A stretch of DNA of 64,000 nt from Anaeropeptidivorans aminofermentans (GTDB taxonomy: Bacteria; Bacillota; Clostridia; Lachnospirales; UBA5962). Shown piece after piece: positions 1,313-20,369 of this stretch. Positions within the stretch are counted from its first letter, which is position 1, and every line of letters starts with the position of its first letter. The notes beneath the pieces were generated by a model. The model was not told where the DNA came from. It worked only from the letters and a program-made list of their open reading frames with translations, and searched no databases. Where the stretch lies: NCBI RefSeq assembly GCF_940670685.1, contig NZ_OW711693.1:2480001-2544000 (forward strand), given 5' to 3'. A program made the position numbers and the translations under genes.

Positions 1313-1319
1313 TTGTGGG

Positions 1320-2585: not shown

Positions 2586-3513
2586 TATATCTTCTCCTTC
2601 CGCCTATTTCTCTATTAATTAGAATAAACTTAGATTTTGCTCATAGTATATCCAAAAATAACATCCCTATCAATATACATCTTATGGCGGCTGAACTCGA
2701 GGGCTTGAGCATGAATAGCGGACAGTATACATACAATTTTAAGTTCATTTAAAAATCGACAAAAAAATTTGAAAAATTTGGCGAAAAATCAGATTTACCA
2801 CCTAAATGGGTATGAATAAAAAGATAATCTGCTATATTATTTTATATAGTAGATTTTTTTATACACAAGAATAATATTCTGTTATTTAAAAATTTAGAAC
2901 GGTCAAAGAATTATACCATAAAAAATGAAAATTACTTTTCAGCAAAGAGATTCTTTTTTAAGCAAAATAAACTAAGGTTTATATCCAGAAAATACAAATT
3001 AAAGCATTCTATGTAAAATTCTTTAAAGAAAATCAGACAATTATGACGATATAAATAATAGAAAGGAAATAAAAACCAACAACGGATAATATTATTCCCT
3101 CTTTTATTAAAAAAGGAACTTATAACGATAAAATACCATTATGGCGGTTTATAGGCCGCAATTACATTATTTCTTGTGGCCGAAAAAGAAGAATTAAACC
3201 TGGATATACACTTAAAAAATATAAAAGTCAAATAATAATATTATGATCTTTTCCTATTGCGTATCGGAAGAGTTCTCTATGAAAAATGAAAGGAGGATAC
3301 TCCTATGGCATAGTCAAATGATTGGAAATCAATAAAGGCCGGAACAGGAATCTATTTCTATTTTAAATACATCGGATAGAATTGGTTTTGAAAGGCACGG
3401 ACAGAATTTATTTTAATGAGTAGATTTTCTGCAAAAAAGCGACACAAGAATTTATGGATATTGTTTTATAGCCAAAGAAAACAAACTTACATAACATAAA
3501 GGAGGATACATAT
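2586..3513. other. 928-bp AT-rich spacer upstream of the first chemoreceptor
   Basis: No convincing gene. It contains the conserved motif-hairpin element at 2781-2860. Near the end, at 3280, a possible 18-codon leader (MKNERRILLW...) overlaps a strong Shine-Dalgarno held in a small hairpin (AGGAGGATACTCCT, 3293-3306), which itself precedes an ATG-GCA-TAG mini-ORF. The rest is very A+T-rich with no long palindromes. It is probably the leader and promoter region of the downstream receptor. Confidence 0.5.
2781..2860 (+). promoter_or_regulatory. Motif-hairpin element, copy 1
   Basis: GCGAAAAATC, then TTTACCACCTAAATGGGTA TGAA (2794-2814), then a 12-bp stem (2826-2837 / 2844-2855) with a seven-T tail. 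It aligns base by base with the element at 11193-11276, and the two hairpins keep pairing although their sequences differ. The core ACC-TAAATG-GGT is a small dyad. Either an operator next to an attenuator or a structured leader; no known riboswitch class recognised. Confidence 0.5.
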
Positions 3514-5574
3514 ATGTTTAAAAAGCTTAAAGCAAATAAGCAAGACCCAAACCTCTCTTCAAAAGGGCTTAAGACACTTCTGTTAAGAATTCTCATATAT
3601 GTCGGGGTTCCGGTAATCATTTCATATCTGGTTGTAAGCGTCGTTCTGATGAATATTGTCAGCACAACCGTTTCTCGTCTTACAACCAATGAATTAAGCG
3701 CTAAGTCGCAAGCGGTGGCCAATGATATTAATGCTTATTTTGGAAAATATTTTGACATAACTGAACAACTTTCCTATAACAGCCAGGCACAAACATTATT
3801 TGGGGAACTGGTTCCCGGAGTTATCATCGAAGAGTATGAAGGTGTAAAGCCGGTAAAGGAAACCATGGAAAATATCCAAGCGGCAAGCGGAGATACCATT
3901 ATGGCTGTATGGGTAGCAGATATAGATTCAAGCCAGCTTATACAGGCAGACGGTGCTTTCCTGCGTGAAGGCTGGGCAGTAAAGGAACGCCCATGGTATA
4001 AACAGCTTTCGGCGGCTAACCACACCATAATGACAGAACCTTATGAAGACAGTGTCACCAAGTCTCAGATTGTAAGCGTAATTAGCCCTGTATATCAACC
4101 GGGAAGCAATGAAATTATAGGGTCAACGGGAGTAGACTTTTCACTGGACGAGCTTGCAAGAATCATCAGATCCTATACCTTGGGTAAAACCGGCTTTTAT
4201 ATCCTCATAACCGATTCGGGCCAGATTATTTATCACCCTGTTTCTGATAATATTGGCAAAAATATTGCCGATATAGATATATCGGATAATATTCAAAATG
4301 CGATGCTTTCCAGATTGGAAGGCAGTTTGGAATATACTTCTCACGGTATTGAAAACCACGGCTATGTTGCATCAGTCGGTAATACAGGCTGGATGATAGC
4401 AACAGGCTTACCGGATACAGAGTTTTATCAGGAATATAGTACAGCAAGAACCGCCACAATCTCTGTCTTTGTCATTGCCGCCGTGTGTGTTTTCTTTATG
4501 ATTTTACTTGTATCACGGCTTATTGTCGCACCGATTAAGAAGCTCACCCTAACGGCTAACCGGATTGCAGAAGGAGACCTTGATGTTTCGGCTGAGGCCG
4601 CTTCCCGTGACGAAATAGGGCAGATGGCAGATGCAATCAACCGCACCGTCATACAGCTTCGCCGATATATCGCCTACATAAAGGAAATTACCTCTACCCT
4701 TGAAAACATGGCTCAGGGAGATATGCGTATTCATCTTAAAGAAGATTATGTAGGTGAATTTGCATCTATCCGGTCGGCTTTTACAATGCTTTCCAATTCG
4801 TTAAATTATACTCTGCGTACTATTGATACTGCCGCCGAACAAGTAAGCGCAGGTTCTTCTCAGGTTGCAAGCGGTGCCCAGGCTCTTGCCTCCGGCTCAA
4901 CCGAACAGGCCGCCTCTGTGGAAGAATTAAGCTCCTCCGTCGAAAGAGTTGCAGAACAAGCAGCGGAAAATTCGTCTAACGTTATGGCTGCGGTTAGCCA
5001 TATTGAGCAGGCAGGCACAGCAGTAAACGAAGGAAATGAGCATATGAAGCACCTTGCCGGCGCAATGGCAGACATTAACTCTGCTTCTAATCAAATAGCA
5101 AGTATTACAAAGGTTATTGAGGACATTGCCTTCCAGACAAACATTCTGGCCCTTAACGCCGCCATTGAGGCCGCCCGGGCAGGAAACGCAGGAAAGGGCT
5201 TTGCCGTGGTAGCCGATGAAGTACGTAATCTTGCAGCAAAGTCCGCAGAAGCCGTTAGACAGACCGGAGAACTGATTGAGGCTTCTGTTGCAGCCGTTAA
5301 GAGGGGCACTGAAATTACCGCTCAAACAGCCCATATCCTTCAAGACGTGGGTGAAAAGGCTAATAAGGTTAGTGAAAGCTTTGATAAAATTGAGAGAGCA
5401 TCTGCTGAACAAGCCTATGCAATCGATCAAATAAAAGAGGGCATTGCCCAAGTTTCTGCCGTTGTTCAAAATAATGCCGCAACTGCGGAAGAGAACTCCG
5501 CAACCAGCCAGGAAATGTCTGCTCAGGCAGCTACTCTTCGTGAAGAGGTGGGTAAATTTAAGCTGGGCGAGTGA
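3514..5574 (+). CDS. Methyl-accepting chemotaxis protein, dCache-type sensor
   Basis: 686-residue membrane chemoreceptor. TM1 is about residues 27-50, a large extracellular double-Cache-like domain follows (about 51-308; [17 protein letters not shown] and [13 protein letters not shown] are typical Cache segments), then TM2 about 311-335, a HAMP domain, a second HAMP-like stretch ([15 protein letters not shown]) and the long MCP signalling coiled coil. The tip carries the CheA/CheW-binding hairpin ([20 protein letters not shown], near 537-560). The start is set by AAAGGAGG upstream of ATG 3514. Signalling-domain sequence is almost identical to the receptor at 11941, showing duplication, while the sensor has diverged. 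It ends KFKLGE and lacks the C-terminal tail of the other two receptors. Cache sensors often bind amino acids or organic acids; the ligand here is unknown. Confidence 0.95.
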
Positions 5575-5636
5575 TAGAACAGAGGATAATTGAGAGGAAT
5601 ATAGAATTCATAAAAAATGGCAGTTTAAGAGTTAAC

Positions 5637-5675
5637 ATAGTAAATTAACTGGAAAAACTCAAATTAATTTACTAT
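5637..5675. repeat. Short hairpin with dispersed-repeat ends
   Basis: ATAGTAAATTAA (5637-5648) and its complement TTAATTTACTAT (5664-5675) flank 15 bases. The ends match those of the larger palindromic repeats elsewhere in the window (TATAGTAAA...), so this may be an internally deleted copy. It could also act as the end of the receptor transcript. Confidence 0.5.
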
Positions 5676-5690
5676 AAGCATTAAAGGGAA

Positions 5691-5730
5691 GCCTATTGAA
5701 CTTTAAAGCATGCATTAAAGTTCAATAGGC
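5691..5730. repeat. 40-bp near-perfect palindrome before the GGDEF-EAL gene
   Basis: The arms GCCTATTGAACTTTAA (5691-5706) and TTAAAGTTCAATAGGC (5715-5730) are exact complements around AGCATGCA. It sits directly before the Shine-Dalgarno of the gene at 5750, so it could be an operator or a leader hairpin. Confidence 0.6.
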
Positions 5731-5749
5731 ATAGACGGAGGTAATAAGG

Positions 5750-8107
5750 ATGAAAAATAAGTCGAAAAAACAGATATGGGCTTGGATGATAATTCTAGCC
5801 GTTAACTCTTTGATGGTCATACTTTTTCCATTGGTGTTTTCTCAAAGCATCAATTCGGATTTTAAGTGGTATATGATGCAGCAAAGACAGAATTCTGTCA
5901 GTAGAATGGTTCACCTTACCTATAACGCCGTCGAACCGTTGATTGACCAGCTTAAAAATGACGAAATAAGCCGCGAAGAAGCAATAGAAAGAATCAGCGG
6001 TCTTGTGAGAAAAATGACTTACGGCGATGAGTTCGGCCCTAATTATATTTTCATGAGTACCTATGATGGAATTATGCTTGTTCAGCCCTATGAACCGGAA
6101 AAGGAAGGTACTGATCAATGGCTTCTTCAAGACGCAAACGGCAAATATATTATACAAGAGCTTGCAAATGCAGCAAAAGCAAATCCTGAGGGCTCTTTTG
6201 TGACATATAATTATTATATACCGAATCTATCCACTGTTGAGGAGAAGCTCTCTTTTGTCATAGGGATACCAGAAATTAACGCTTACATAGGTACCGGCAT
6301 ATATATGGAAAGCAACTATAAAATGCTTAAGGCAACTCTTGAAAAGCAACGGATAACTTATATTGCGACGACAATTTTTATACTTGCATCATTTTTGCTA
6401 TATACACGGGCACTCCTTAGAAACAATCAGCGGCTTCAACAGGAGATTAAGGAGCGGACCTACGCAGAGAATAATTTATGGACTGTGTTTGATACCATTC
6501 ACGATGCCATTATAATTCATGATGAAAAAGGAAGGCTTCTGCATACGAATAAACAGGCCAGCATTATGTACGGCCTAAACTGCGATGATATTCTTAATTA
6601 TAGTATCAAAGACATCACCGTAGACCCTGTTCTTGAAAATCAATGGATTGAAAAATTAAATGAAAAGATTGAGAACCAAGGCTTTGTAATCTTTGAATGT
6701 AAATCAAAGAAACCGCTGGAGGGAACAGTCCTTGACCTAGAGATTGCCCTTCGTAAGACTCAGTGGTCTGGAACAAATGCTTATGTAGCTGCTGCACGCA
6801 ATATTACGGAACGAAAACGATATATGGAGAATATTCATCGCCTTGCTTATTTTGACAGCCTTACGGGCCTTCCCAACAGGGCCTATATCATGCGCGAATT
6901 ATATAAAAGGCTGGATAGATGCACCGATAGCTGCGGCTCCGGCTCCGCTTTCTTTATAGATGTGGATAATTTCAAAATAATTAATGATACCCACGGACAC
7001 TCCTGCGGTGACCGTATGCTGATTGAAATCGCAACACGCCTGAATACCCTTTCTTCACCAAATCTTACCTTATCACGGTCCGGAGGCGATGAATTTCTAA
7101 TACTTTCTGCCAATGCTTCTAGAAAAGAGGAAGTTCTTAAACTGGGGGATCAAATCTTTTCCTTATTTAAGGAGGCTATTATTATCGATAACATCAGCTT
7201 CCATGTTACCTGCAGCATAGGGATTGTATTCTACCCCAGAGACGGAAAGACAGTTGAGGAGCTTTTGAAGCATGCTGATCTTGCGATGTATAAAGCTAAA
7301 AATCAGGGAAGAGATAAATATGTTCTGTTTGACAGCAGCATGGTAACGGAGCTTTCTCAGAGGACAGAACTCGAGAATCGCCTGAGAGAAGCTTACAAAA
7401 ACAGAGAATTTCTATTGCATTATCAGCCGCAAATTGATTCAGAGAGCGGCAAAGTCATTGGTATTGAAGCCCTTATACGCTGGCACAGTGATTCTCATGG
7501 GCTTATATCCCCAGAGGATTTTATTCCTGTGGCTGAGGAAATGGGCCTTATTAATGAAATCGGCATGTGGGTCATAGAAGAAAGCTTTAGCTTTGCCCGG
7601 AGCCTAATGGATAAGGGCATATGCGTTTCCTGTAATGTATCTCCTGTTCAGCTGAAGCAAATTAGCTTCGTTGATGACGTTATTGAAGCTTTTAACCGGT
7701 TTGGCCTTAAGAAAGGCAGCGTGGCAATTGAAATCACCGAATCCTGTCTGGTTGAATCCTTTGGCGACACCTATGCAAAGCTTGCCAGATTAAGGGACTG
7801 CGGTATTATGATTTATTTAGACGATTTTGGCACCGGCTATTCCTCTTTGAACTATATGAAGAGCCTGCCCATTGACGTACTGAAAATCGACAAATCCTTT
7901 ATTGATAATATTACGGCAGACGGCATTGAACGGCACATTGTAAAAACAATTGTATCTCTCGCCCGGGAAATAGGGCTTAAAGTTATTGCAGAAGGCGTAG
8001 AAGAAAAGGCACAGCAGACCTATCTGACTGCCTGCGGCTGTAATGCCATCCAAGGTTATCTTTTTAGCCGGCCTGTTTCGGAATCAGAAGTACTGGATTT
8101 AATATAA
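5750..8107 (+). CDS. Cache-PAS-GGDEF-EAL cyclic-di-GMP signalling protein
   Basis: 785-residue membrane protein. TM1 is about residues 10-32, an extracellular single Cache domain (about 35-195) follows, TM2 about 200-222, PAS (about 240-354), GGDEF (about 364-523) and EAL (about 544-780). The GGDEF site is intact (SRSGGDEF) but there is no RxxD inhibitory site before it. The EAL domain keeps all expected catalytic residues: EALIRW, CNVSP, EITE, the DDFGTGYSS pair of aspartates, LKIDKSF, AEGVE and QGY. I infer a working cyclic-di-GMP phosphodiesterase, with the GGDEF domain either active or GTP-sensing. The start has GGAGG 9 bases upstream. Two 40-bp palindromes flank the gene. Between chemoreceptors, it probably sets motile or sessile behaviour in response to an external ligand. 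Confidence 0.94.
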   Translation: MKNKSKKQIWAWMIILAVNSLMVILFPLVFSQSINSDFKWYMMQQRQNSVSRMVHLTYNAVEPLIDQLKNDEISREEAIERISGLVRKMTYGDEFGPNYIFMSTYDGIMLVQPYEPEKEGTDQWLLQDANGKYIIQELANAAKANPEGSFVTYNYYIPNLSTVEEKLSFVIGIPEINAYIGTGIYMESNYKMLKATLEKQRITYIATTIFILASFLLYTRALLRNNQRLQQEIKERTYAENNLWTVFDTIHDAIIIHDEKGRLLHTNKQASIMYGLNCDDILNYSIKDITVDPVLENQWIEKLNEKIENQGFVIFECKSKKPLEGTVLDLEIALRKTQWSGTNAYVAAARNITERKRYMENIHRLAYFDSLTGLPNRAYIMRELYKRLDRCTDSCGSGSAFFIDVDNFKIINDTHGHSCGDRMLIEIATRLNTLSSPNLTLSRSGGDEFLILSANASRKEEVLKLGDQIFSLFKEAIIIDNISFHVTCSIGIVFYPRDGKTVEELLKHADLAMYKAKNQGRDKYVLFDSSMVTELSQRTELENRLREAYKNREFLLHYQPQIDSESGKVIGIEALIRWHSDSHGLISPEDFIPVAEEMGLINEIGMWVIEESFSFARSLMDKGICVSCNVSPVQLKQISFVDDVIEAFNRFGLKKGSVAIEITESCLVESFGDTYAKLARLRDCGIMIYLDDFGTGYSSLNYMKSLPIDVLKIDKSFIDNITADGIERHIVKTIVSLAREIGLKVIAEGVEEKAQQTYLTACGCNAIQGYLFSRPVSESEVLDLI

Positions 8108-8653
8108 AAACAAAAGCGAAATTATCTTTTAGAGAGAATCAATTATAGCTCCCCTTCCCTGAATCTTGCGATAACCATAGGGCTAGTCTGTTTCTCTCAG
8201 TCCATGCAGCAAATATTGATTATAGAAATCCAGTATTTTGTTATAACAAAATACTGGATTTCTTATTAATACCCAAAGGTATGAACTTAGGAAGCACCAG
8301 GTTAGGATTTATATAAACAAATCCATGTTTGCAAAACAAGTTTACATTTTGTTGTATATCAAAATTTTAAACAGAATTATCCTTTGTCGATTTGTGGCGA
8401 TTTATGTAACTCTATTCATTGAAGAATCATATATTCCATGATAAAATAAACCGGATGGGGATAAAATAATGAATCATTTGCGGAGAACGGCAGCGAAGTG
8501 CGAATGGTAGTTTTGTGCTGTCTGAGAATCAAGTGAAAGGTATAATGAAAAAGAAGCAGCCTTGATTTTGACAGATGCTTTAAAGCCAGCAGCTATATGG
8601 TAAACATCGGGAAAATGAGTCACTGTCTCCCTCATCAGACTGGAGGAAACAAG
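8108..8653. other. Spacer before the LuxR gene
   Basis: 546 bp without a gene. Holds the perfect 40-bp palindrome at 8224-8263, a short core of the ACC-YAAA-GGTATGAA motif at 8270-8286, and a segment (8281-8340) resembling pieces of the spacers at 22905 and 47220. The end is the leader of the LuxR regulator. Confidence 0.5.
8224..8263. repeat. Perfect 40-bp palindrome
   Basis: AGAAATCCAGTATTTTGTTA (8224-8243) is followed directly by its exact complement (8244-8263), without a loop. It lies 117 bp after the GGDEF-EAL gene. There is only a weak T tract after it, so it may serve as a terminator on both strands or as a protein-binding site. Confidence 0.7.
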
Positions 8654-11194
8654 ATGAGCCAGACGATAAGTAAACAAGAAAAATATTATTTCTCTGACAA
8701 ACTTAAAGAGCAGCTGAGTCAAATATCACAATATCCCTTAACCATTATTGAGGCCCCCAGCGGCTTTGGAAAAACAACAGCAGTTAGGGAATATTTACGA
8801 AACGAGCTTCCTGAGGCGTCCTGCCAATGGTACATATGCTTGGGAGAATCTGCGCCTATAGCATGGCTGGGAATCTGCGAACTGTTTTCCAGAATAAACA
8901 GTGAAGTGGCCAATAATATGAAAAGCTTGAAAATGCCTACCCTGGACACCCTCTTCCATATGACATCATATCTTAAAAATTTGGAATGCCGTAATAAAAC
9001 ATATTTTGTAATCGATAATTACCAGCTTATTAACTTTGATATGCATCGGGAGCTTATAAACGTTTTTTCTATGCACGAAGACCCAAACCTTCACATGATA
9101 TTTATTACTCAGCAGCTGGACTTCAGACAGCAACTCTCCATACATAATAACAATATTCATACAATTGATGCCTCCTCCTTCTTTTTTGACAAAGAGGGTA
9201 TTGCAAACCTCTTTCGCATGGAGGGCTTGCGGATCACAGAAAACGAGTTGGAAAATATTTTTAAAAATACAGAAGGCTGGATTTCTGCTATCCGCCTGCA
9301 GATGATAAACTACAAAGAATCCGGCTCCTTTATTTATTCAGCAGGAATTGAACATCTTGTAGAAACCGCCATTTGGAACCGTTTAGGATCTGTTGAAAAG
9401 GATTTTCTTCTTAAAGTATCTGTTTTTGACAGCTTTACGGCGCAGCAGGCTGCCGAAATACTCGACCATGAAGTCCTGCCCGGAAAAATTGAAGAAGAGC
9501 TTAAATCCAGCGATTTTGTACGGTTCTTACCCGATAAGCGTCTGTTCATTATAAACGGTATTTTTCTGGACTATCTGCGTAATAGATTCTATCACCATCA
9601 GCCAAGAGCATACCAAAAGAAGGTATTCTACAAAGCCGGTATTTCTTGCGCTGCCATGGGACAGTATTGCCTTGCCACAAAATTTTTCTATACTATCAGA
9701 GACTTTGATTCCATACTTTCTTTACCTTTTACCCGTCAATATTTAGATTCCCAAAAAGAAGAATGTGATGAAGCAATGTTTGTGGAAATCGTTCGCGAAT
9801 GTCCGGAAGAAATATTATGTAGGTATCCTTCTGCTATTGTTGTCTTCGGCCATTATGCACATTTAAATGAGCAACACGAAATCTATAAAAAGCTCTGCCG
9901 GCTGCTTCGGTCGCTTATGCAAAATAAACCAAATTTATCGCAGGAAGAAATCCGAAGGTTTAATGCAGAGCTTGTCCTGCTGGAAGTTTTGGGAGAATTC
10001 AACGATATTACTAAAATGAAGGAAGGCTATAAAAAAGCAAGGGATATTTTAGAAGACTCATCTGATATAATCGAGCATAGTACGCCGTGGTTTTCTGTAT
10101 TTCCTACGGCTTTCGGCATTTTTTGGCGTGAATCTGGAAAGCTTGACGAAATGCTTAACACCATTGATGAAATTAGGCCTTTCTACCGTAGCCTCAGTCA
10201 AGGCCAGGGAGCCGGCCTAGGCCATCTTATAAGAGCAGAGGCTGTGCTTTCAAAGGGCGAGGATAACGAAGCGGAAATACTTTGCCATAAGGCCCTTTAT
10301 GAAGCCCGCACCTACAGACAGTTCAGCATTTGTATCTATGCAGAATTAAGCCTTGCTAGGATTTTTATCCTAAGAGGAGATTCTGAGAAATTTTTCACTG
10401 CAATTAAAAATATTCAAAGCTTTGCAACAGATTACTCTGACCCTTCCATACACCGTATGGTGGATATGTGCATGTCAATTATAAGCCTTACGCTGGGGGT
10501 AAAGGATTATGTTGCTCCTTGGTTCTATAATATAGAGGGCATTAGAAAATTACTCTATGCCCCTGTCATTCCGTTTGCGGAAATATGGTATTTTAGGCTT
10601 TTGCTTATAGATAAGCGCTATAATGAGCTCTTTGCCTTTAGCCAGCTTGCTCTGGATACTCTCAGAAACTCCGGTGCAAAAGTTCAATATATGATGCCCC
10701 AGATACATAGCCTCATCTTCCTCTCCCTGGCAAAGCATAAAAGCGGAAATGATTTGGAAGCCCAGATGTATCTAAAAGAGGCCCTTGCCATAGCCCTCCC
10801 CGATCAGGTATATCTTCCCTTTGCCGATTATGATTGCATGACCAATCTGCTTACAGGGATAAATATATGCTATTTCGACAACCCTATGAAATCTGCGCCT
10901 TCCCATAAAAACCAGAAAGAGACATTTATGTTAAACAGCTTCGATGCCTTAACGGAGCTTTGCAAACGGCAGCAAAAGGGCATAAGCACAATAAGAAAAT
11001 CCCTTATTCAGGTTAAATCTACCTTAACATCAAGAGAAAGAGAAATTGCTCTCCTTGCCAAAGAAAGACTCAGTGCAAAGGAAATTGCAGATAAGCTTTA
11101 TATATCGGAAACAACTGTTAAAACGACCCTTAGAAATGTTTACAGCAAGCTTGATATTCATTCAAGAAGTGAGTTGGCAACCATAGAATTTTGA
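8654..11194 (+). CDS. MalT-like LuxR-family transcriptional regulator
   Basis: 846 residues from ATG 8654, chosen because TGGAGGAAACAAG gives a good ribosome binding site there; a longer in-frame start at 8597 has none. It has a STAND-type NTPase head with Walker A EAPSGFGKTT (residues 33-42), a winged-helix and TPR-like helical middle (about 300-770), and a C-terminal GerE/LuxR helix-turn-helix (LTSREREIALLAKERLSAKE, then SETTVKTTLRNVYSKL). Such proteins are ATP-dependent, ligand-triggered activators, with MalT as prototype. Its place among chemoreceptor and cyclic-di-GMP genes suggests it controls this island. The inducer is unknown. The gene ends inside a conserved motif-hairpin element that is also found upstream of the first receptor. 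Confidence 0.93.
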   Translation: MSQTISKQEKYYFSDKLKEQLSQISQYPLTIIEAPSGFGKTTAVREYLRNELPEASCQWYICLGESAPIAWLGICELFSRINSEVANNMKSLKMPTLDTLFHMTSYLKNLECRNKTYFVIDNYQLINFDMHRELINVFSMHEDPNLHMIFITQQLDFRQQLSIHNNNIHTIDASSFFFDKEGIANLFRMEGLRITENELENIFKNTEGWISAIRLQMINYKESGSFIYSAGIEHLVETAIWNRLGSVEKDFLLKVSVFDSFTAQQAAEILDHEVLPGKIEEELKSSDFVRFLPDKRLFIINGIFLDYLRNRFYHHQPRAYQKKVFYKAGISCAAMGQYCLATKFFYTIRDFDSILSLPFTRQYLDSQKEECDEAMFVEIVRECPEEILCRYPSAIVVFGHYAHLNEQHEIYKKLCRLLRSLMQNKPNLSQEEIRRFNAELVLLEVLGEFNDITKMKEGYKKARDILEDSSDIIEHSTPWFSVFPTAFGIFWRESGKLDEMLNTIDEIRPFYRSLSQGQGAGLGHLIRAEAVLSKGEDNEAEILCHKALYEARTYRQFSICIYAELSLARIFILRGDSEKFFTAIKNIQSFATDYSDPSIHRMVDMCMSIISLTLGVKDYVAPWFYNIEGIRKLLYAPVIPFAEIWYFRLLLIDKRYNELFAFSQLALDTLRNSGAKVQYMMPQIHSLIFLSLAKHKSGNDLEAQMYLKEALAIALPDQVYLPFADYDCMTNLLTGINICYFDNPMKSAPSHKNQKETFMLNSFDALTELCKRQQKGISTIRKSLIQVKSTLTSREREIALLAKERLSAKEIADKLYISETTVKTTLRNVYSKLDIHSRSELATIEF

Positions 11195-11276
11195 CGAAAA
11201 ATGTAATTTACTACCCAAAGTGGTATGAAAAAAAACACGGTCCGTTGTATGATTTTATACAGCGGATTGTTTTTTT
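11193..11276 (+). terminator. Motif-hairpin element, copy 2, and LuxR terminator
   Basis: Begins on the stop codon of the LuxR gene: GACGAAAAATG, then TTTACTACCCAAAGTGGTA TGAA (11207-11229), then a stem GGTCCGTTGTAT / ATACAGCGGATT (11239-11250 / 11257-11268) and a T run to 11276. The hairpin should terminate the LuxR transcript. The conserved part before it is the same as at 2781-2825 and may be a regulator site. Confidence 0.65.
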
Positions 11277-11580
11277 GCCATTAGTATTCCTCATAAAAAG
11301 ACTACACAGCTTCGGCTTAATTATAAAGGAGAAGAGCTTTTACATTTATACGGATAGCAGGAGCGCTAATATTATAAGTGCCATTAATAAATATGGAAAA
11401 CAACAAATAACAAAACTATCAAAGGAACTTTAAGAAGGCTTAAACTGCAGCTCCAAATTCATATGGAAAGGTCTATGTCCTCAAAAGGCTTAAATATTAG
11501 CTTACGAAAATAGGCTTTTTTCACATACTTCCATAAAGGATTCAACAATAAGTCACACCGGGGAAAGGAGATTTACAATA
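11277..11580. other. Spacer between LuxR terminator and DUF2442-like gene
   Basis: About 300 bp with no supported gene. A reading frame overlapping the LuxR stop runs to 11433 but crosses the terminator and has no ribosome binding site. The end carries the AAAGGAGA signal of the next gene. Confidence 0.45.
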
Positions 11581-11916
11581 TTGGATATTAACGCCATTAA
11601 AACCAGTATAGAGGCAAATAATGTGCCAGATGCAATGGAAATGAAGCATCAAAGCAAAAGCAATGGATATTTCAGAAGCGTTCAGGCCCTTCCGGGATAT
11701 CATCTTGAAGTAACCATGGAGACCGGCTCGATTATCCATTTTAATTTCCGCAGCAGACTCAATACCGCTCGGTTTGGAAGGCTTATAGATGAAGAATTAT
11801 TCCAAAGTGTACAAACAGACGGAAATTACTTGATATTTCATAAAGCCGGAATTATGCCTGTCAAAGTCACCGCATCTGAATTCATGGATTTGGTTCTAAT
11901 TGATAGGAGCAAATAA
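11581..11916 (+). CDS. DUF2442-like small protein
   Basis: 111 residues from TTG 11581, with AAAGGAGA upstream. The pattern resembles DUF2442: a strand pair with LPGYHLEVTMETGSIIHFNF, then RFGRLIDEELFQSVQTDGNYLIF. It is soluble with no signal peptide. It lies 24 bp before a chemoreceptor, so co-transcription is likely and a role linked to that receptor or to the LuxR protein is possible. DUF2442 proteins have no firmly assigned activity. Family assignment is by overall pattern only. Confidence 0.65.
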   Translation: MDINAIKTSIEANNVPDAMEMKHQSKSNGYFRSVQALPGYHLEVTMETGSIIHFNFRSRLNTARFGRLIDEELFQSVQTDGNYLIFHKAGIMPVKVTASEFMDLVLIDRSK

Positions 11917-11940
11917 ATCTATATAAAAGAGGGATGAAAT

Positions 11941-14097
11941 ATGTTTAAAAATAAAAGGATTTCTAAGAAATCAGGTTCATATTCAAAGGGGTTCAAATCA
12001 CTTTTTACAAGAATTCTTACATTCGTAGGGTTACCTGTTGTCATTACCTTTTTGCTTGTAAGCTTCGTACTGTTGAGCCTTGTAAATAATGCCGTCACCA
12101 GGCTCACGACAAACGAATTAAGTGCAAAATCCCTTGCAGCTTCTTATAGTATTAATAATTATTTTGAAAAACACCTTGAAATTGTAAAGACCCTTGCCGG
12201 AAATTCCGAACTGGAAACACTGTTTACCTCTGTCAAACCTGGTATAAAAATCGGTGATTATGACAATTTTCCTCAAATTAAAAGTACTCTTGAGAATGTG
12301 CAAAATGCAAACCCAGAATCAGTTATGTCCGTATGGATTGTAGATATTGATTCAAGCCAGCTTGCTCAGGCAGATGGATACCTTTCAGAAGAAAGCTGGG
12401 ACGTACAAAAACGGCCGTGGTTTATCCAGATGAAAAGTGTAAATTCTTCTATTTTAACAGACCCTTATGAAGATACCTCCACTAAATTGCAGGTAGTTAC
12501 CGTGGCTTCCCCTATATTTAAACCGGATACCCAAGAAATTATTGGGGTCGCCGGCATAGATTTTTCGCTGGAAACCCTCAGTGAAACCATCAAAGGATAT
12601 ACCCTTGGAGAAAAGGGATTTTACATACTCTCAACCGGAGCAGGTCAGATTATATATCACCCTGTTGCCGAAAATATTAATAAAAATATCGCTGACACAG
12701 ACATGTCGGAAAATATTAAAGAAGCCTTACTTTCTAAATCAGAAGGAAGCCTTTCATACACCTCTCACGGCATTAAAAGCCACGGCTATGTTTCACCGGT
12801 AGGAAAAACAGGCTGGACCGTAACGACCGGCTTACCTAATGATGAATTTAAGCAAGAATTTTTTGAAGTCCGTACAGCTATGCTTGCCACCTTCGCAATT
12901 GCCATAGCTGCCATAATGGCTGTGCTGCTGATTTTATCAAGTCAAATAGTAGCACCAATAAAAGCCCTTACAAAGACCGCCAATATGATTGCAGAAGGAA
13001 ACCTTGATGTTTCAGCTGAAGTGAGCTCCCGTGATGAAATAGGTCAGATGGCAGATGCCATTAACCGCACTGTTATACAGCTTCGCCAGTATATCGCCTA
13101 TATAAAGGAAATTACCTCTACCCTTGAAAATATGGCCTTGGGAGATATGCGTATTCACCTTAAAGAAGACTATGTGGGTGAATTTGCATCTATCCGGTCG
13201 GCTTTTACAATGCTTTCCAATTCATTAAATCATACCCTTCGCACTATTGATACTGCTGCCGAACAAGTAAGCGCCGGTTCTTCCCAGGTTGCAAGCGGCG
13301 CCCAGGCCCTTGCTTCAGGCTCAACTGAACAGGCAGCTTCTGTGGAAGAATTAAGTGCTTCCATCGAAAGAATCGCGGAACATGTGTCTGAAAATTCGTC
13401 TAACGTAATTGCCGCTGCTGGCTATATCGAGCAGGCAGGCACAGCAGTAAACGAAGGAAACGAACATATGAAGCAGCTTGCCGGTGCAATGGCAGAAATT
13501 AACTCTGCTTCTAATCAAATAGCAAATATTACAAAGGTTATTGAAGACATTGCCTTCCAGACAAATATTCTGGCTCTTAACGCCGCTATTGAAGCAGCTC
13601 GGGCAGGAAATGCAGGAAAAGGCTTTGCTGTTGTAGCTGATGAAGTTCGAAGCCTGGCAGCAAAGTCTGCAGAAGCTGTTAGGCAGACGGGAGAGCTGAT
13701 TGAGGCTTCTGTTGCAACCGTTAAAAAGGGTACAGAAATTACCACTCAAACATCCCATATCCTTCAAGATGTAAGTGAAAAAACAGTTAAGGTCAGCGAA
13801 AGCTTTGATAAAATTGAGAAGGCATCTGCCGAACAAACCCTTGCAATTGAACAAATTAAAGACGGTATTACCCAAGTTTCTGCCGTTGTGCAAAATAATG
13901 CTGCAACAGCAGAAGAAAATTCTGCAACCAGCCAAGAAATGTCTGCCCAGGCTGCTACCCTGCGGGAAGAAGTAGGTAAATTCAAACTGGATACGGAAAC
14001 AGGAAATAACGATATTCCAATAATGCCCAGGTTTACAGGCGCTCCCGAGATCTTTGACCCAATACTAAAAACTTCCTATGAGTTGGGCAAGTATTAA
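11941..14097 (+). CDS. Methyl-accepting chemotaxis protein, dCache-type sensor, with C-terminal tail
   Basis: 718 residues. TM1 about 25-48, double-Cache-like extracellular domain ([30 protein letters not shown]), TM2 about 313-335, HAMP plus a second HAMP-like segment, and the MCP signalling hairpin ([20 protein letters not shown]). The cytoplasmic part is nearly identical to the receptor at 3514; the sensor is clearly homologous but diverged, which suggests a changed ligand. After the shared end VGKFKLD there is a 30-residue flexible tail that ends SYELGKY. The next receptor has the same type of tail ending STLGKY. A receptor tail of this form may tether adaptation enzymes, as the CheR-binding pentapeptide does in enterics (inference). 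Confidence 0.95.
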
Positions 14098-14128
14098 AAC
14101 AGTAGAATTTTAAATTGGAGGGACTATT

Positions 14129-15952
14129 ATGGCTACAGCCAAAGTAAAAAAAGGCAAAAACAGCTTAATTAAAAATTTATCTATCGGTAAAAAACTAATC
14201 ACAGGCTTTGGTATTGTGCTTATTTTAATGCTGCTATCTGCAGCTTTGTCACTCTACAGCATCAATAACATAAATCAGCAAATCAGCTTATACGGAGAAT
14301 ACACGGTTCCCAATGCAGAGCATGTTAGAAGCATGCAAGTAAATATGCAGGGCATTTTGCACACTTTACTTGAGGCCATAACCGCCGATAATCTAAAGGG
14401 CTCAAAAGATGCGCTGGACAAAGCCGAAAATTACGGCAGGTTAATTGTAGCTGAATTAGATTTTTATGAAAATAACCAGCGAAACCATGACAGGGACGCA
14501 GATATTGAACAAATAAAAATAATTATTACTGAAGCCGCGGAAAAACGGCACGAAATTAGCGAGCTTATTCTCACCCGCTCAGATTTTAACATCGCCAAAG
14601 CGCTGAATCTATATAGAAATGAATATAAACCGAGAATTGATAAGGCCATGGATATTCTGCTTCAATTTTCAACATCCGCTAAAGACCGGGCAGCACAACA
14701 AAGCGCCGACGCTTATGCATCTTCTGTTTCCGCATGGGTTATGGTTACAGCCTGTATCGCAGTATCTGTCGGGCTTACAATTATAGTAATAATTTCCATA
14801 AGAAAGTCCATACTCGACCCGATTAACGAAATCGTAAATGCCTACTACGAAATATCCAAAGGCAATACCAAGGCTCAAATAAATTACGAAAGCCGTGACG
14901 AACTTGGCCAAATGGCAAAGCTTATTCAAAAAACCAACGAATTGCAAAAGGCTCTTATTGAAGATATTGTTGAGAAGTTTATAAAAATATCTACGGGTGA
15001 CCTTAGGCTTCAAGTGGATTTGGATTATCCCGGTGATTATGCTATTCTTAAGCAAACAATGGAAAAAACTGTTTCCACCTTGAACCATACCATGAAAGCT
15101 ATAAATACCGCTGCCGAGCAGGTCAGCACAGGTTCTTCCCAGGTTGCAGACGGAGCCCAGCTTCTTGCGGCAGGCTCTACAGAGCAGGCGGCTTCTGTAG
15201 AAGAATTAAATGCCTCTATTATAAAAATTGCCGAACAGGCGGCAGAAAACTCCGATAATGTAAAAATAGCAAGGCAGCAGGCTGAACAGGCCGGAGCCGA
15301 TGCCAACAGCGGAAATGAGCATATGAAGCATCTTGCCGATGCAATGAAAGATATTAACTCTGCCTCCAATCAAATAGCAAGCATTACAAAGGTAATTGAA
15401 GACATTGCCTTCCAGACAAATATCCTTGCCCTTAACGCTGCCATTGAAGCGGCTCGTGCCGGAGATGCCGGAAAGGGCTTTGCTGTGGTAGCTGATGAGG
15501 TTAGAAGCCTTGCCGCAAAATCTGCAGAGGCTACGAAAAAAACCAGCGAATTAATTCAAAATTCGGTTGCCACAGTATCTCATGGTACAGAAATCACAGC
15601 TCAAACGGCGCAAGTTTTACTGGATTTGGGAATAAATGCACAGCAGGTAATGGACGTTATGGTTAAAATCGAACAAGCCTCCGCTGAACAGGCTAATGCC
15701 ATTGAACAAATTAAACAGGGCTTAGTTCAGGTTTCCGCCGTTATCCAAAATAACGCCGCCACTGCGGAAGAAAATTCCGCAACCAGTGAAGAAATGTCTG
15801 CCCAGGCGGCAACTCTTCGTGAAGAAGTAGGTAAATTCAAGCTGGATACGGAAGCAGAAAAAGATAATATTTTAGTAATTCCCCAGTTAACAGCCCCATC
15901 TAACACATCAGAACTTATGATTATGAATTCTTCCACATTGGGTAAGTATTAA
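14129..15952 (+). CDS. Methyl-accepting chemotaxis protein, four-helix-bundle sensor
   Basis: 607 residues, 31 bp after the previous receptor and with GGAGG upstream, so co-transcribed. TM1 is about 21-44 and TM2 about 200-222; the ~155-residue extracellular part is all helical (4HB_MCP-like: [20 protein letters not shown]) rather than Cache. Then HAMP ([19 protein letters not shown]), a second HAMP-like segment and the signalling hairpin with [20 protein letters not shown]. The end has the tail SSTLGKY. Signalling domain shares its core with the two Cache receptors, but differs in flanks ([11 protein letters not shown]). Ligand unknown; 4HB sensors often bind small molecules at the dimer interface. 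Confidence 0.95.
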
Positions 15953-16116
15953 ATCCATAGGATTTTAATTTGGGGATTCACATGGATATAGCTGAAATAA
16001 AAGATGTAAAGACAGCTTTATGCCTTTTGACCTATATAGCCCACACCTTCTTAATATATCCTCATAGGCAATAGAAGGCCAGTCCAAACATCGAAAATTT
16101 AAGGAAGAATAAGCCG
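15953..16116. other. Short spacer with a 30-codon frame
   Basis: An ATG frame at 15981 (MDIAEIKDVKTALCLL...) runs 30 codons with only a weak ribosome binding site. It is probably debris rather than a gene. Confidence 0.3.
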
Positions 16117-16496
16117 ATGAACCGCAAGAAAATAAAATGGGCTATTAAAACATTTTTAGCTGTAGCCGCCATGCTCATAGGCTCTCTCGCTGTACTCATT
16201 GCCTTATCTATCTTATGTATCAGCAAGGAAATGACAGATAAGGTTAACGACGAGTTTTCAGGATTTTCTGCCCAAAACGGAATTATCAGAGAATCGTTAG
16301 CAATACCACAAAGGCCGCAGAAAATCTTAAAAGCGTTATCTCAGATGTTGGTTATTGCAACAGTTTCAGCAGAGATGAAAACTTTTCTGCAAATCTTACC
16401 TTACCTGCAAGAGACAGCATTGTGGAAAGTATCAGGCTTTCATCGCTTTATAAAAGTGAACTTAGAAAATATTTATACCCTAGGCATTGTTTGTAA
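16117..16496 (+). pseudogene. Frameshifted remnant of a membrane sensor protein
   Basis: The ATG 16117 frame starts like a membrane sensor (basic MNRKKIKWAIK, then a membrane segment AVAAMLIGSLAVLIALSILC and KEMTDKVNDEFSG). After about nt 16290 its composition becomes unlikely. The +2 frame instead reads sensibly (NTTKAAENLKSVISDVG, SANLTLPARDS, SSLYKSELRKYLYP) to TAA 16496. I infer one frameshift near 16290-16310 and loss of the whole C-terminal output domain. It may be the front end of a former receptor or cyclic-di-GMP enzyme. The ORF in the first frame reaches 16512, but I do not regard it as a real protein. Confidence 0.55.
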
Positions 16497-16619
16497 AAAG
16501 AAAAACCGATGAATGTTTTGCGAAAAAATATATGAGAGTTTTGATTTTACAAACAAGCCCTGACAAGCTTTCGGAATTTTTTATAAATTATACAATTATG
16601 AATCAAAAGGGGGAATTAT

Positions 16620-19421
16620 GTGAAAAACATTAAGAAAGAGACTACTCAGATACCGAATAAAATAGTCATTCCGGTATTGATTTTCTGCGGCCTTGTGTTT
16701 GCGGTATCCATAATTCTACTTTTTACACAACAAAAACAGAAGCTAGATGAAGAGTTTAAAAGTATGATTATCAACAGCCTTAATATACATACTAAAAGCA
16801 ATGCCGCTGCCATTAATAATGCCATTGAGAATGCAGGCGGTATATTGGAAATTACGAAAGAAATGCTTTTATCAACGGATACTAATAATCCCCAAGGCAT
16901 TTTAGCGCAACTGAATACAATGAATTCCGCCCTGTTCATCGGGTATATCAGCGCCCATGAAATTATAACAGAGGCATTATCCACTGTGGTCCAGGCAGAC
17001 GGAGAAGACGTCGGCAAGAGACTTTTACAGGGTGAAACCGTTGTAGGAAAAATACGCTATTTTCAATCTTTACGGGGTCATTTTCTTCCTTTAGTTTTAC
17101 CGGTGCAAGAAAACGGAAGCACAGCAGGCGCTCTGTATGCTCATATCAAGGCAGAGGGGCTGCTTCCTGATAATTCCGAAAGCGCCATATATCAAGATGT
17201 ACAAAGCTGCCTAATTACAAGTAATGGTGATATTTTCTTTAATACCTTCCTGCCAGGTCAGGAAGGAAACCTCTATGAAACTCTTAATGCATATGGCCTT
17301 ACCCCAGATGAAATTAAAAACATTACGGCAATTATCAATAGTCCTCATATGGACAGCACCGTTTTTAACCGCCATGGAGAAGTTTACTTTGTATCCGCTT
17401 CCCCATTGGAATATAACGGCTGGCATCTGGTCTCTTTCGTTCGTGGGCCGGATGTACTTCTGCGTTCGGCAAATATCTTTAAAGATCTGGTGACTACCAG
17501 CGCCGTATCGATCTTTCTTACTGCAGGGACCGCCTGCGTTGTTTTCATGCTGCTTCTTTTCAGCAAAAAAGAGCTGGAAAAAGAACAGCGTCGTAATAGT
17601 GAACTTGCACAAAGGCTTAAAGCTATGTTTGACCAGCATAATGCTTTAAAAGTAGTCCTTGATGCCGAAACCCAAGAAATTATGGACGTAAATCCTGCCG
17701 CATGTAAATATTTCGGCTCTACTCGGCATGAAATGCTTGGCCGTAAGATTCAAGATTTCACTTTGCTCTCTTTTGACATTCTTGATGAGAAATTCCAGAA
17801 CGCTGAAAGCGGCAAAGTCATATTTTTAGCGGCTCCCCATCGCGTTCAAAGCGGAACCATTAAGCTTCTCGATGTTTATGCCTCTATTATCCGTGACGGT
17901 AACCGGAATCTGGTTTATGGAATTCTCTTTGATTCAACAGACAGAGAGCAGTACCGTAATGATCTGTATCGTGAAAAAGAACTTCTTCGGACAACGCTGC
18001 AGTCCATTGGCGACGGCGTAGTTACAACGGATAATCTTGGCCTTATTACCAGTTTAAATGAAGTTGCTAAGAAATTAACCGGCTGGAAAAACGGCACAGC
18101 TATCGGCAAGTCCTTTACGGAAGTGTTTATCCTCCGCAATGAAGAAACCGGCCAGCCGGCAGAAAACCCCATACAGAAGGTCTTGGAAACAGGCAGAATC
18201 ATAGGCCTCGCAAACCACACAGAGCTTGTAAAAAGCCATGGAGAATGTATTCCCATTGCCGACAGCGCAGCCCCTATCAAGGCGGAGGATGGAGAGACCT
18301 TCGGTGTCGTTATGGTATTCCGTGATGTCAGCGACGAAAAAAAATATAGTAAGCAAATTGAATTTTTAAGCTACCATGACTCTTTAACAGGCTTATATAA
18401 CAGGCGCTACATTGAAGAGATGATGGTCCGCCTTGATGCAGAAGAGCATTACCCCGTTTCAGTCATTATGGCAGACGTTAACGGCCTAAAAATCACAAAC
18501 GATGTATTTGGGCATAAAGCAGGAGACGCTTTGCTTAAAAACGTAGCTGACCTTATGCGAAAATGCTGCAGAGAGACTGATTTTATTGCCCGATTAGGCG
18601 GCGATGAATTTGTTATCCTTATGCCGGAAACAAGTTTGGAATCAGCGGAAGTAATTATCCAGAGAATCAAAGATACCCATATTGCAATTGAAGGCAATCT
18701 CTCCCTTAGCCTGTCACTGGGCTGTGCCTATAAAGATACGGCTGAAAGCAGTATTCAAGCAGCCATGCAGAAAGCTGAGGAATATATGTATCAGCAGAAG
18801 CTTCTTGACGGAAAAAGCTACCGAAACTCCATTATCAGTACCTTGCTTGCTACCCTCTACGAAAAAAGCAATGAAACAGAAGAACATTCGAAGCGCCTTG
18901 AAACATACTGCCATGAAATAGGCAGAAAGCTTCAGCTTTCCTCTAAGGAGATGGACGAGCTTTCTTTATTGGCTCTTCTCCATGATATTGGAAAAGTCAG
19001 CATCAATCCAAATATTCTGCAAAAGCCCGGCACTCTTACCTCTATAGAATGGGAAGAGATGAAGCGGCATCCTGAAATCGGTTACCGAATTGCCCAGGCT
19101 ACCCCGGAACTGGCGGTTATAGCAGATTTAATACTGTCCCACCATGAGCGCTGGGACGGAGAAGGTTACCCGCGAAGACTAAAAGAAGAAGAAATTCCCT
19201 TTGCCTGCCGTATTCTTTCTGTGGTAGATGCCTTCGATGCCATGACTAACGACAGGATATACCGTCAGGCTATGAGCCCTCAAGAGGCACTGGTTGAAAT
19301 TATAATAAATGCGGGGAAGCAATTTGATCCACAGGTGGCAAATCTCTTAATCGAAATTATTGCAAGTGAAGATGAAAGTTTAGTATTGGAGGATTTATAC
19401 CATGACAAATGTACCAAATAA
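16620..19421 (+). CDS. PAS-PAS-GGDEF-HD-GYP cyclic-di-GMP protein
   Basis: 933 residues from GTG 16620 with AAGGGGGAA upstream. TM1 about 17-38, extracellular sensor about 39-290, TM2 about 292-315, PAS about 335-440, PAS about 455-570, GGDEF about 580-730, HD-GYP about 736-918. GGDEF is intact (ARLGGDEF) and preceded by RETD, a proper RxxD inhibitory site, so it can probably make cyclic-di-GMP under product control. The HD-GYP domain keeps HDIGK, HPEIG, SHHERWDGEGYP and DAFDAM, so it can probably hydrolyse it. The next gene overlaps by 20 bp. Different class of hydrolase from the EAL protein at 5750, giving the island two independent turnover enzymes. Confidence 0.94.
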   Translation: MKNIKKETTQIPNKIVIPVLIFCGLVFAVSIILLFTQQKQKLDEEFKSMIINSLNIHTKSNAAAINNAIENAGGILEITKEMLLSTDTNNPQGILAQLNTMNSALFIGYISAHEIITEALSTVVQADGEDVGKRLLQGETVVGKIRYFQSLRGHFLPLVLPVQENGSTAGALYAHIKAEGLLPDNSESAIYQDVQSCLITSNGDIFFNTFLPGQEGNLYETLNAYGLTPDEIKNITAIINSPHMDSTVFNRHGEVYFVSASPLEYNGWHLVSFVRGPDVLLRSANIFKDLVTTSAVSIFLTAGTACVVFMLLLFSKKELEKEQRRNSELAQRLKAMFDQHNALKVVLDAETQEIMDVNPAACKYFGSTRHEMLGRKIQDFTLLSFDILDEKFQNAESGKVIFLAAPHRVQSGTIKLLDVYASIIRDGNRNLVYGILFDSTDREQYRNDLYREKELLRTTLQSIGDGVVTTDNLGLITSLNEVAKKLTGWKNGTAIGKSFTEVFILRNEETGQPAENPIQKVLETGRIIGLANHTELVKSHGECIPIADSAAPIKAEDGETFGVVMVFRDVSDEKKYSKQIEFLSYHDSLTGLYNRRYIEEMMVRLDAEEHYPVSVIMADVNGLKITNDVFGHKAGDALLKNVADLMRKCCRETDFIARLGGDEFVILMPETSLESAEVIIQRIKDTHIAIEGNLSLSLSLGCAYKDTAESSIQAAMQKAEEYMYQQKLLDGKSYRNSIISTLLATLYEKSNETEEHSKRLETYCHEIGRKLQLSSKEMDELSLLALLHDIGKVSINPNILQKPGTLTSIEWEEMKRHPEIGYRIAQATPELAVIADLILSHHERWDGEGYPRRLKEEEIPFACRILSVVDAFDAMTNDRIYRQAMSPQEALVEIIINAGKQFDPQVANLLIEIIASEDESLVLEDLYHDKCTK

Positions 19422-19935
19422 GACGAATGACCCTAATGCCTTTACCTGGGAAAAGCTTGGGGATATCAAAAAAGGCCGTGCATCTCTTGGGGAAGAAATG
19501 CCGGTTCTCATATATCGCTTAATGCAGTATACCATGCTTGATGTACTGAGTAAGTCTTACGGAAATAAAACAGCAAACGAGTATTTCCGTAAGTCCGGCT
19601 ATTTGGCCGGTACGGAGTTTGCAACTCATGTATTAGACGTACAGGTTGAATTCAGCGTTTTTGTAGCAAACCTTCAAAAGACAATGAAAGAATTGAAAAT
19701 TGGGATTTTGCGCATGGAAGATTATAATGAAACAACCGGAGAAATTGTTCTTACTGTCGGAGAGGACCTTGATTGCAGCGGGCTTCCTATTACTAACGAA
19801 ACCGTATGTTATTATGATGAAGGCTTTATCTCCGGTATCCTTGAAGTCTATACCGGTAAAAAATATGATGTCCGGGAAATTGATTGCTGGGCTACAGGAG
19901 ACAGAGTTTGCCGGTTCCGAGGCGTAGTGGAGTAA
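19402..19935 (+). CDS. V4R-domain protein
   Basis: 177 residues, with GGAGGATTTATACC before ATG 19402 inside the end of the HD-GYP gene, so the two are translationally coupled. The C-terminal ~100 residues fit the V4R (4-vinyl reductase-like) domain, a ligand-binding fold, with the paired cysteines CWATGDRVCRF near the end. The N-terminal part is predicted helical and could dimerise. There is no DNA-binding or enzymatic domain attached. Such proteins bind small hydrophobic ligands, metals or haem-like cofactors. I infer a soluble sensor partner of the cyclic-di-GMP enzyme. Family assignment fairly sure; role inferred. Confidence 0.75.
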   Translation: MTNVPNKTNDPNAFTWEKLGDIKKGRASLGEEMPVLIYRLMQYTMLDVLSKSYGNKTANEYFRKSGYLAGTEFATHVLDVQVEFSVFVANLQKTMKELKIGILRMEDYNETTGEIVLTVGEDLDCSGLPITNETVCYYDEGFISGILEVYTGKKYDVREIDCWATGDRVCRFRGVVE

Positions 19936-20369
19936 ATTTCTTATAAAACAGGAGAAAATACTTATTCACGATAGCTATGTTCTTCGGAAACAGTATTATT
20001 TTTGCGGCAATGTAAATATGCGTTTTTTCCTATTTCATTTTAAATTTACTATAAAATAAAAAAGAGCTGTTTTGACTGTAATAGTCCGCATAAATCAATC
20101 ATAAACCATATAAGGTATTACCGCATATAAAGCCAAAAGCCACAGTCATAAAAATAAATTAAAAAGCCTTTCTCGAGCTGCTTTTGCTTAGTTTATAAAC
20201 TACTAAAGCAGCTTTCTTATCCCTTTAATCTAAAAATATCCCTTGACTTTCCCCCTACTGGAAGATGTATGATACAGATAATCTCGAGATTGCCGTTAAC
20301 AAATTTATCTTTAAATTTATTAACCATAAAAGGGCCCCTAACTTAAAAATGATGCATAAGCTTACGCTT
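19936..20369. other. Spacer after the sensory island
   Basis: No gene. Contains a fragment with a repeat-like end (AAATTTACTATAAAA, 20042-20056) and a hairpin at 20176-20216 whose arms AGCTGCTTT and AAAGCAGCT enclose TAGTTTATAAACTA, itself a palindrome. The latter could end the V4R transcript. Confidence 0.45.

Follow-up and report, generated by a model that had tools for sequence, protein, structure and literature searches.

Regulators of the STAND class such as MalT and the LAL proteins consist of an N-terminal P-loop ATPase, a helical-repeat middle and a C-terminal GerE helix-turn-helix. The known MalT-type regulators are activators, and MalT boxes occur as direct repeats or as single boxes, while the lux box of LuxR-type class II promoters is centred at about -42.5. 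For the LAL regulators of Streptomyces, heptameric direct repeats are described (PMC5930380). The locus considered here is a 16.4-kb island of sensory genes with a STAND/LuxR regulator in its midst, found in a 64,000-nucleotide stretch of Anaeropeptidivorans aminofermentans DNA (the window; positions 2,480,001-2,544,000 of a closed genome of 3.757 Mb). The regulator belongs to the known STAND/LuxR kind and appears to have the three-part architecture of MalT and LAL proteins, but unlike them it is linked to chemotaxis genes, and the site proposed for it, a 17-bp dyad with symmetric arms, lies some 43 bp upstream of the predicted transcription start. The design of the predicted promoter is unusual. 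No published account of such a chemotaxis-linked regulator, or of such an overlap of promoter and terminator, was found in the open literature, a scope that leaves out most subscription journals and all preprints; among the matches listed, the titles and abstract lines of papers on LAL regulators show no link to chemotaxis, and no paper on DUF2442 treats such a system.

A sensory island and its proposed regulator

The reading favoured here, with a probability of roughly 70%, is that the island is a local regulon whose own STAND/LuxR protein activates two self-insulated promoters bracketing the island genes. The island genes (3514-19935, from the open reading frame list and a Pfam search) all lie on the plus strand, and are listed below with the two predicted operator-promoter elements.

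2796-2865, plus strand: element 1, predicted operator-promoter; dyad TACCACCTAAATGGGTA at 2796-2812, then 22 nt, then the -10 hexamer TATTAT at 2835-2840, which is part of the 5' arm of a hairpin with a T tail
3514-5574, plus strand: MCP1, a chemoreceptor (methyl-accepting chemotaxis protein, MCP) with dCache_1, HAMP and MCPsignal domains (Pfam)
5750-8107, plus strand: sCache_2-PAS-GGDEF-EAL protein (Pfam); GGDEF, EAL and DDFGTGYSS motifs intact
8225-8262, plus strand: long perfect hairpin of 38 nt between the EAL gene and luxR, with a weak T run; a possible terminator, absent from the terminator-scan list
8597-11194, plus strand: STAND/LuxR (MalT-like) regulator, GerE match at 5e-13; the proposed switch
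11209-11275, plus strand: element 2, predicted operator-promoter; dyad TACTACCCAAAGTGGTA at 11209-11225, then 22 nt, then the -10 hexamer TATGAT at 11248-11253 within a hairpin at 11237-11270 followed by a T run
11581-11916, plus strand: DUF2442-like small protein; TTG start at 11581 preceded by AAAGGAG, conservation beginning at 11641
11941-14097, plus strand: MCP2, a chemoreceptor with dCache_1 and the C-terminal tail ...YELGKY
14129-15952, plus strand: MCP3, a chemoreceptor with 4HB_MCP_1 and the tail ...STLGKY
16117-16512, plus strand: open reading frame of 131 amino acids (x131) with a single membrane segment, judged by eye, and no family match; may be a remnant
16620-19421, plus strand: dCache-PAS-PAS-GGDEF-HD-GYP protein (Pfam); GGDEF, HDIGK and GYP motifs intact
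19402-19935, plus strand: V4R protein of 177 amino acids (PF02830), overlapping the HD-GYP gene by 20 nt

A preliminary description of the island, made from the letters alone, had listed three receptors, EAL and HD-GYP enzymes, a STAND/LuxR regulator, a DUF2442-like protein and a V4R protein on one strand between these coordinates, and the open reading frames and Pfam matches confirm that list. The clustering of sensory genes is not due to chance given the genome-wide counts, for the island packs three of the genome's 12 MCPs, two of its 13 GGDEF hits (a count that takes in one hit with an internal stop) and one of its two V4R hits into 16.4 kb of the 3.76 Mb.

The regulator, of about 865 amino acids, carries the Walker A motif APSGFGKTT, putative helical repeats and a C-terminal GerE helix-turn-helix that scores 48.9 bits against PF00196 (cut-off 23.5). 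Its other parts score lower: 25.9 bits for the ATPase against PF13401 (AAA_22), just below the cut-off of 27, and 22.5 bits for the MalT-type repeats against PF17874 (TPR_MalT; cut-off 45). The P-loop EAPSGFGKTT is invariant across the three closest aligned members.

One pattern scan of named genomes (EAPSGFGK or a second motif), which was not exhaustive, gathered 75 LuxR loci, and 71 STAND/LuxR proteins were placed in a quick IQ-TREE phylogeny (LG+G4). A locus was labelled as chemotaxis-linked if any MCP, CheA/W/B/R/D, EAL/GGDEF or HD-GYP BLAST match fell between 1.5 kb before and 3.5 kb after luxR. The island regulator lies in a clade of 21 members (SH-aLRT 96), in which all 15 assessable members carry the label, six more having too little flank, as against 1 of 44 outside it; with the same-species copy L118 counted once, the comparison is 14/14 versus 1/44 (Fisher p 1.5e-12). 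Put the other way, the clade contains 15 of the 16 labelled rows of the tree.

At 3.402 Mb the same genome has a paralogue of the regulator (58-59% identity). Behind it come CheR and CheB, then a DUF2442-like protein (76%) and an MCP, and finally a small open reading frame and a GGDEF protein. Because LuxR, DUF2442-like and MCP genes recur in both islands, the row is a duplicated core and not a chance arrangement. This paralogous island is about 99% identical in DNA to a locus of 'Clostridiales bacterium UBA11329', and the two genomes therefore belong to the same or nearly identical species. In other relatives, the genes that follow luxR are these:

L106: MCP
L107, Faecalicatena contorta: HD-GYP protein 69% identical over 619 amino acids to that of the island, then GGDEF
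L108, Desulfosporosinus: MCP
L109, F. contorta: DUF2442-MCP
L110, Anaerocolumna: CheW-MCP-CheW-CheR-CheB and a CheD-like open reading frame
L112: CheA-CheW-CheB
L113: CheR-CheB-MCP
L114: CheA-CheW-CheR
L117: CheA-CheW-CheR-CheB-CheD, histidine kinase, receiver-DUF2442 fusion, MCP
L119: DUF2442-MCP
L121: an operon convergent with luxR, CheR-CheB-CheW-DUF2442-MCP-CheW-DUF2442-MCP, beside flagellar-like genes

The core of the island is conserved and the entire island is not. The preliminary description proposed local regulation in which the LuxR protein may be the switch; this finds considerable support in the chemotaxis-linked clade, the paralogous island and the two bracketing elements, which make that protein a likely switch. 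A search of relatives for conserved gene order, which it had suggested as a check, recovered pieces and not the whole; of the scattered and not co-regulated homologues that it held would undo the proposal, the scattering is partly seen.

The predicted operator-promoter element

Directly behind most clade luxR stop codons lies a common element that consists of a 17-bp dyad, 22 nt, a TATNNT hexamer in the 5' arm of a hairpin, and a T run. The distance between dyad and hexamer is fixed: over 16 loci (315,222 bases, both strands), a dyad combined with TA[TC]NNT gave 12 hits at an offset of 31, whereas each of the other offsets between 21 and 45 gave 0-4. When the 25 nt before the stop codon were added, the test at offset 31 was passed by 11 of the 17 sequences in the clade and by 15 of the 57 outside it, with 0-6 at other offsets and shuffle means at 31 of 0.4 (clade) and 0.9 (others); the spacer of L108 is 21 nt and not 22. 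The arms of the dyad vary within the clade with compensation (TACC..GGTA, TACT..AGTA, TACGA..TCGTA, TACTTAAT..ATTAAGTA), and other clades have other dyads at equal spacing (CCCCC..GGGGG, ATCACCC..GGGTGAT, GTAC..GTAC, GGAC..GTCC), so that dyad sequence tracks the clade of the regulator and its helix-turn-helix type. In the genome of L119 there are two sites, both with the rare arms TACGAA..TTCGTA, the second of them before DUF2442-MCP.

The first base of the hexamer falls within the 5' arm of the hairpin at 14 of 16 sites, the exceptions being the second L119 site, which has no hairpin, and L108, where the arm is one base short. If the hexamer is taken as a -10 box, the dyad is centred near -43, and the -35 positions hold no TTGACA-like box (ATGAAA at element 2, the others judged by eye), so the promoter is likely to depend on an activator. 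In geometry, the element thereby resembles LuxR-type class II promoters, at which the dyad overlaps -35 and contact between activator and polymerase would be expected; it differs from them in that the -10 lies within a T-tailed hairpin and that the regulator is a STAND protein and not an acyl-homoserine-lactone receptor. The only clear plus-strand intergenic terminator listed by a terminator scan is the one inside element 2. The first gene downstream of element 2 is that of the DUF2442-like protein, and the first downstream of element 1 is that of MCP1. Element 1 is a stand-alone copy of the whole element, hairpin included; a remnant of luxR or DUF2442 ahead of it was sought by tblastn in 2216-3513 with no convincing hit.

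Within the genome of A. aminofermentans, a search allowing two mismatches finds exactly three sites, namely 11211-11253, 2798-2840 and one in the paralogous island. Twenty other genomes yield seven sites at up to one mismatch, all directly behind clade luxR genes, and nine genomes in which no clade member was detected yield none at that threshold. Of the hits at two mismatches, one in G053, two in G020 and one in G679 lie outside luxR loci, whereas the one in G674 is the site behind the L113 luxR. The clade genomes G668, G670, G672 and G677 have no site at up to two mismatches, in G668, G670 and G677 because the arms or the spacing depart from the pattern. At three mismatches, controls with a reversed pattern give equally many hits, and therefore only hits with two mismatches or fewer are counted.

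How such a system might work can be outlined from these parts. The regulator would sense a signal through its ATPase and helical-repeat part and bind the 17-bp dyads about 43 bp ahead of the transcription start, with the dyad taking the place of a -35 box as in class II geometry. Transcription would start some 7 nt past the hexamer, in the loop or the 3' arm of the hairpin. Transcripts arriving from upstream, that of luxR itself included, would form the hairpin and stop; a transcript that begins past the 5' arm could not form it and would therefore run on, which would make the promoter self-insulated. Promoter 1 (2796) would drive MCP1 and the EAL gene, with the hairpin at 8225-8262 perhaps ending the unit, and promoter 2 (11209) would drive DUF2442-MCP2-MCP3-x131-HD-GYP-V4R. 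The products would alter the receptor set of a single flagellar chemotaxis array together with the local enzymes of cyclic-di-GMP, and may in this way reset cyclic-di-GMP and taxis jointly, as first suggested. Were this so, it would provide a testable switch by which clostridia could exchange receptor sets and local cyclic-di-GMP enzymes together.

The chances are about even that the island is one case of a widespread cassette, in which a STAND/LuxR regulator, a fixed-geometry promoter with its -10 in a terminator hairpin and often a DUF2442-like dedicated partner or output domain would drive exchangeable cargo. The cassette would span Bacillota and Synergistota, its cargo being chemoreceptors and Che proteins in one clade and secreted proteins of very large size elsewhere, with each clade having its own dyad at equal spacing. 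A -10 hidden in a terminator would then explain insertion anywhere without read-through.

Weighing the alternatives

Several observations weigh against a local regulon. Relatives hold only pieces of the island (LuxR-MCP, LuxR-HD-GYP, LuxR-CheA/W/R/B, MCP-HD-GYP), and L107 adjoins HD-GYP and GGDEF genes, not chemotaxis genes proper. At 673 nt, the leader ahead of MCP1 is long. Many of the dyad arms measure no more than 4 bp, and the strict criteria of the spacing test fail 6 of 17 clade sequences, among them the island's own site, which has one arm mismatch. No element is seen behind the convergent regulator of L121 or behind the luxR of L111 (genome G672), and the scan at three mismatches carries no evidence. 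The motif was first spotted by eye in these loci and the consensus for the genome scan was built from them, which makes its perfect matches to them circular; the spacing test and the absence of the element elsewhere are not circular.

The scattering of homologues in relatives and the lack of conservation of the full gene set would also fit a locus under no common control, in which duplication and transfer amassed the sensory genes, the hairpin being simply the luxR terminator. Duplication has occurred, as the near-identical signalling halves of MCP1 and MCP2 attest, and intergenic gaps of 175-490 bp leave room for separate promoters. A lack of common control is nevertheless improbable, for it does not account for a stand-alone element at 2796 with no luxR ahead of it, for the 15/15 versus 1/44 linkage of the clade, or for the confinement of the three element copies in 3.76 Mb to two islands. 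The element might instead act as RNA, the small hairpin and the terminator hairpin forming an attenuator in a leader that comes from further upstream, with an RNA-binding factor (perhaps the DUF2442-like protein) as its reader. All three copies in the genome fold well (z -5.9, -4.8 and -3.7), the two hairpins usually stand in tandem and DUF2442 lies just downstream; but the dyad-to-TATNNT distance is base-exact across diverged regulators, the hexamer retains -10-like letters, dyad sequence tracks the helix-turn-helix type of the regulator, many dyads would give a mere 4-bp stem with a 9-nt loop, and the second L119 site is a dyad and -10 with no hairpin, all of which makes an attenuator quite unlikely.

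A repressor that sits on the dyad at the -35 position and blocks RNA polymerase until a signal frees it would have an identical anatomy, since geometry alone leaves the sign of regulation undecided. The missing TTGACA-like box suggests the need for an activator, however, and the known MalT-type regulators are activators, and repression is thus very unlikely. Compatible with a local regulon, and in itself unlikely, is recent acquisition of the locus as a mobile genomic island that brought its regulator along. The same-species assembly of UBA11329 (3.3 Mb) matches the left flank alone (window 1201-2496), at 97-99%, with the contig ending there; no island gene was found in that assembly at 97-99% identity, and near 20366-20610 there is a dispersed repeat. 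Against this, the UBA11329 assembly is incomplete and the search reached only to window position 21100, and the inspected parts of the window showed no integrase, tRNA or attachment site.

The DUF2442-like protein

Against Pfam PF10387 the small island protein scores 15.2 bits, under the gathering cut-off of 23.9, and a sequence search of the PDB returned no match for it. An AlphaFold model (22 sequences, pLDDT 89.6) resembles the N-terminal domain of 2auw_A (VIA Z 9.3, 81/91 residues, root-mean-square deviation 3.8), which is taken here to be a DUF2442 structure, the N-terminal part of NE0471, and also 3k8r (Z 7.3). The predicted fold thus agrees with the DUF2442-like label first given to the protein, although its sequence falls below the family cut-off.

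Matches occur in 15 of 295 genomes of the order (A. aminofermentans included), and at seven of the eight other loci read the gene stands beside a full or partial STAND/LuxR gene, the eighth, L092, being a fragment without LuxR. When 391 genomes of the class were searched with a profile, 52 had a match; 82 hits were listed, and neighbourhoods were read in 40 fetched regions. Among hits with E below 1e-12 outside the studied genome, 15 of 19 adjoin a STAND/LuxR gene, the other neighbour usually being a very large secreted-type protein, whereas none of 20 weaker regions does (Fisher 1.5e-7). The exceptions are the second copies in L236 and L248, the sole copy in L233, and L244, which lies at a contig end. 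In the chemotaxis clade, wherever the flank is readable, the DUF2442-like gene is followed directly by an MCP (7/7: the island, the paralogous island, L109, L117, L119 and two in L121). In L117 (10154-10855) a receiver domain is fused to it, directly before the MCP and after a PAS histidine kinase.

The island protein was also considered as an ordinary DUF2442, and this was set aside, as the weak profile hits (20 regions) are never beside LuxR. They often stand beside another gene, presumably DUF4160-like. The group to which the island protein belongs shares with DUF2442 (PF10387, 2auw) its predicted fold, and differs in its partners, which are STAND/LuxR with a receptor or large secreted protein and not a DUF4160-like gene, and in the fusion of one member to a receiver domain. 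These features suggest a partner or output domain of the regulator, and they tie proteins so far without a function to a defined regulator class, a link that ordinary DUF2442 hits do not have.

A third copy in the genome of A. aminofermentans (L251, 8235-8501) lies between a histidine kinase/response regulator pair and a secreted-type protein of 1595 amino acids. In L148, L150, L165 and L170, where the dyads are of AAGTAC or GGAC type, the LuxR gene is followed by a tandem pair of DUF2442-like units within a single reading frame.

Receptors, cyclic-di-GMP enzymes and the V4R protein

Originally described as two kinds of cyclic-di-GMP hydrolase, the EAL and HD-GYP proteins do have the corresponding motifs intact (PF00563 at 241 bits, with EAL at residue 573 and DDFGTGYSS at 691; PF13487 at 129.5 bits, with HDIGK at 788 and GYP at 849), but the term is too narrow, as both retain an intact GGDEF motif (residue 445 in the EAL protein, 660 in the HD-GYP protein). 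Because GGDEF stands intact beside EAL or HD-GYP, both enzymes may be bifunctional, with motifs of cyclase and hydrolase type. MCP and HD-GYP genes are a recurring taxis/cyclic-di-GMP pair; they lie side by side at three more places in relatives (L277 3942-7945, L278 8323-11994 and L281 5816-9078), with no LuxR in the stretches fetched.

The tail ..LGKY, after a flexible stretch, is found on 3 of the 12 MCPs of the genome, all within the two LuxR islands (MCP2 at about 14080-14097, MCP3 at about 15935-15952, and L056 7327-9105), and similar tails occur in L110, L113, L121, L274 and L282. In Escherichia coli the tether peptide of MCPs for CheR is NWETF, and by analogy the LGKY tail is perhaps a tether for the CheR of the second island.

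The V4R protein scores 58.3 bits against PF02830 (cut-off 31), and its sole matches among PDB sequences, both weak, are PoxR (E 0.09) and MopR (E 0.83). Its Cys136, Cys162 and Cys170 are spaced by 26 and 8 residues, as are the zinc cysteines Cys151/Cys177/Cys185 of DmpR (PMC7264223); Glu159 aligns with a Glu of PoxR within the weak match, at a spacing that differs from that of DmpR Glu172. Unlike the PoxR, MopR and DmpR sensor domains, the island protein is free-standing, overlaps the HD-GYP gene and lacks a sigma-54 ATPase domain. It may be a small-molecule sensor tied to the HD-GYP protein. Homologues are found in F. contorta (71%), followed by a GGDEF gene, and in G668 (73%), with other neighbours.

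Genome setting and other features

No cheA or cheW lies within the island, as had been noted at the outset, and the CheW-domain hits of the genome are located elsewhere: CheA and CheW at 1.817 Mb, where a separate CheR and CheB accompany them, and a further CheW-domain protein at 0.658 Mb. FliG is also encoded in the genome. The island therefore probably feeds its receptors into a flagellar chemotaxis system encoded outside it.

Up to 14 kb upstream of the island are a fourth MCP, one more GGDEF protein and the second V4R protein, so the sensory neighbourhood reaches past the window edge. Just before the window, L055 (genome 2,462,001-2,482,000) contains at 11117-16285 this second V4R gene (48%, minus strand), an AP2-like gene, an sCache MCP and a GGDEF gene. 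Inside the island, x131 was compared with the island proteins and with those of relatives as a possible broken sensor, and matched none of them. At the right edge, the dispersed repeat (with a further stretch at about 19932-20053) recurs many times in G667, the same-species assembly, as short copies that have diverged.

Elsewhere in the window, a guanidine-I riboswitch (26564-26665, minus strand, 88.4 bits) lies just before a gene at 25776-26513 (minus strand) that matches the membrane-protein family SfLAP (PF11139), making this gene a candidate guanidine-linked transporter.

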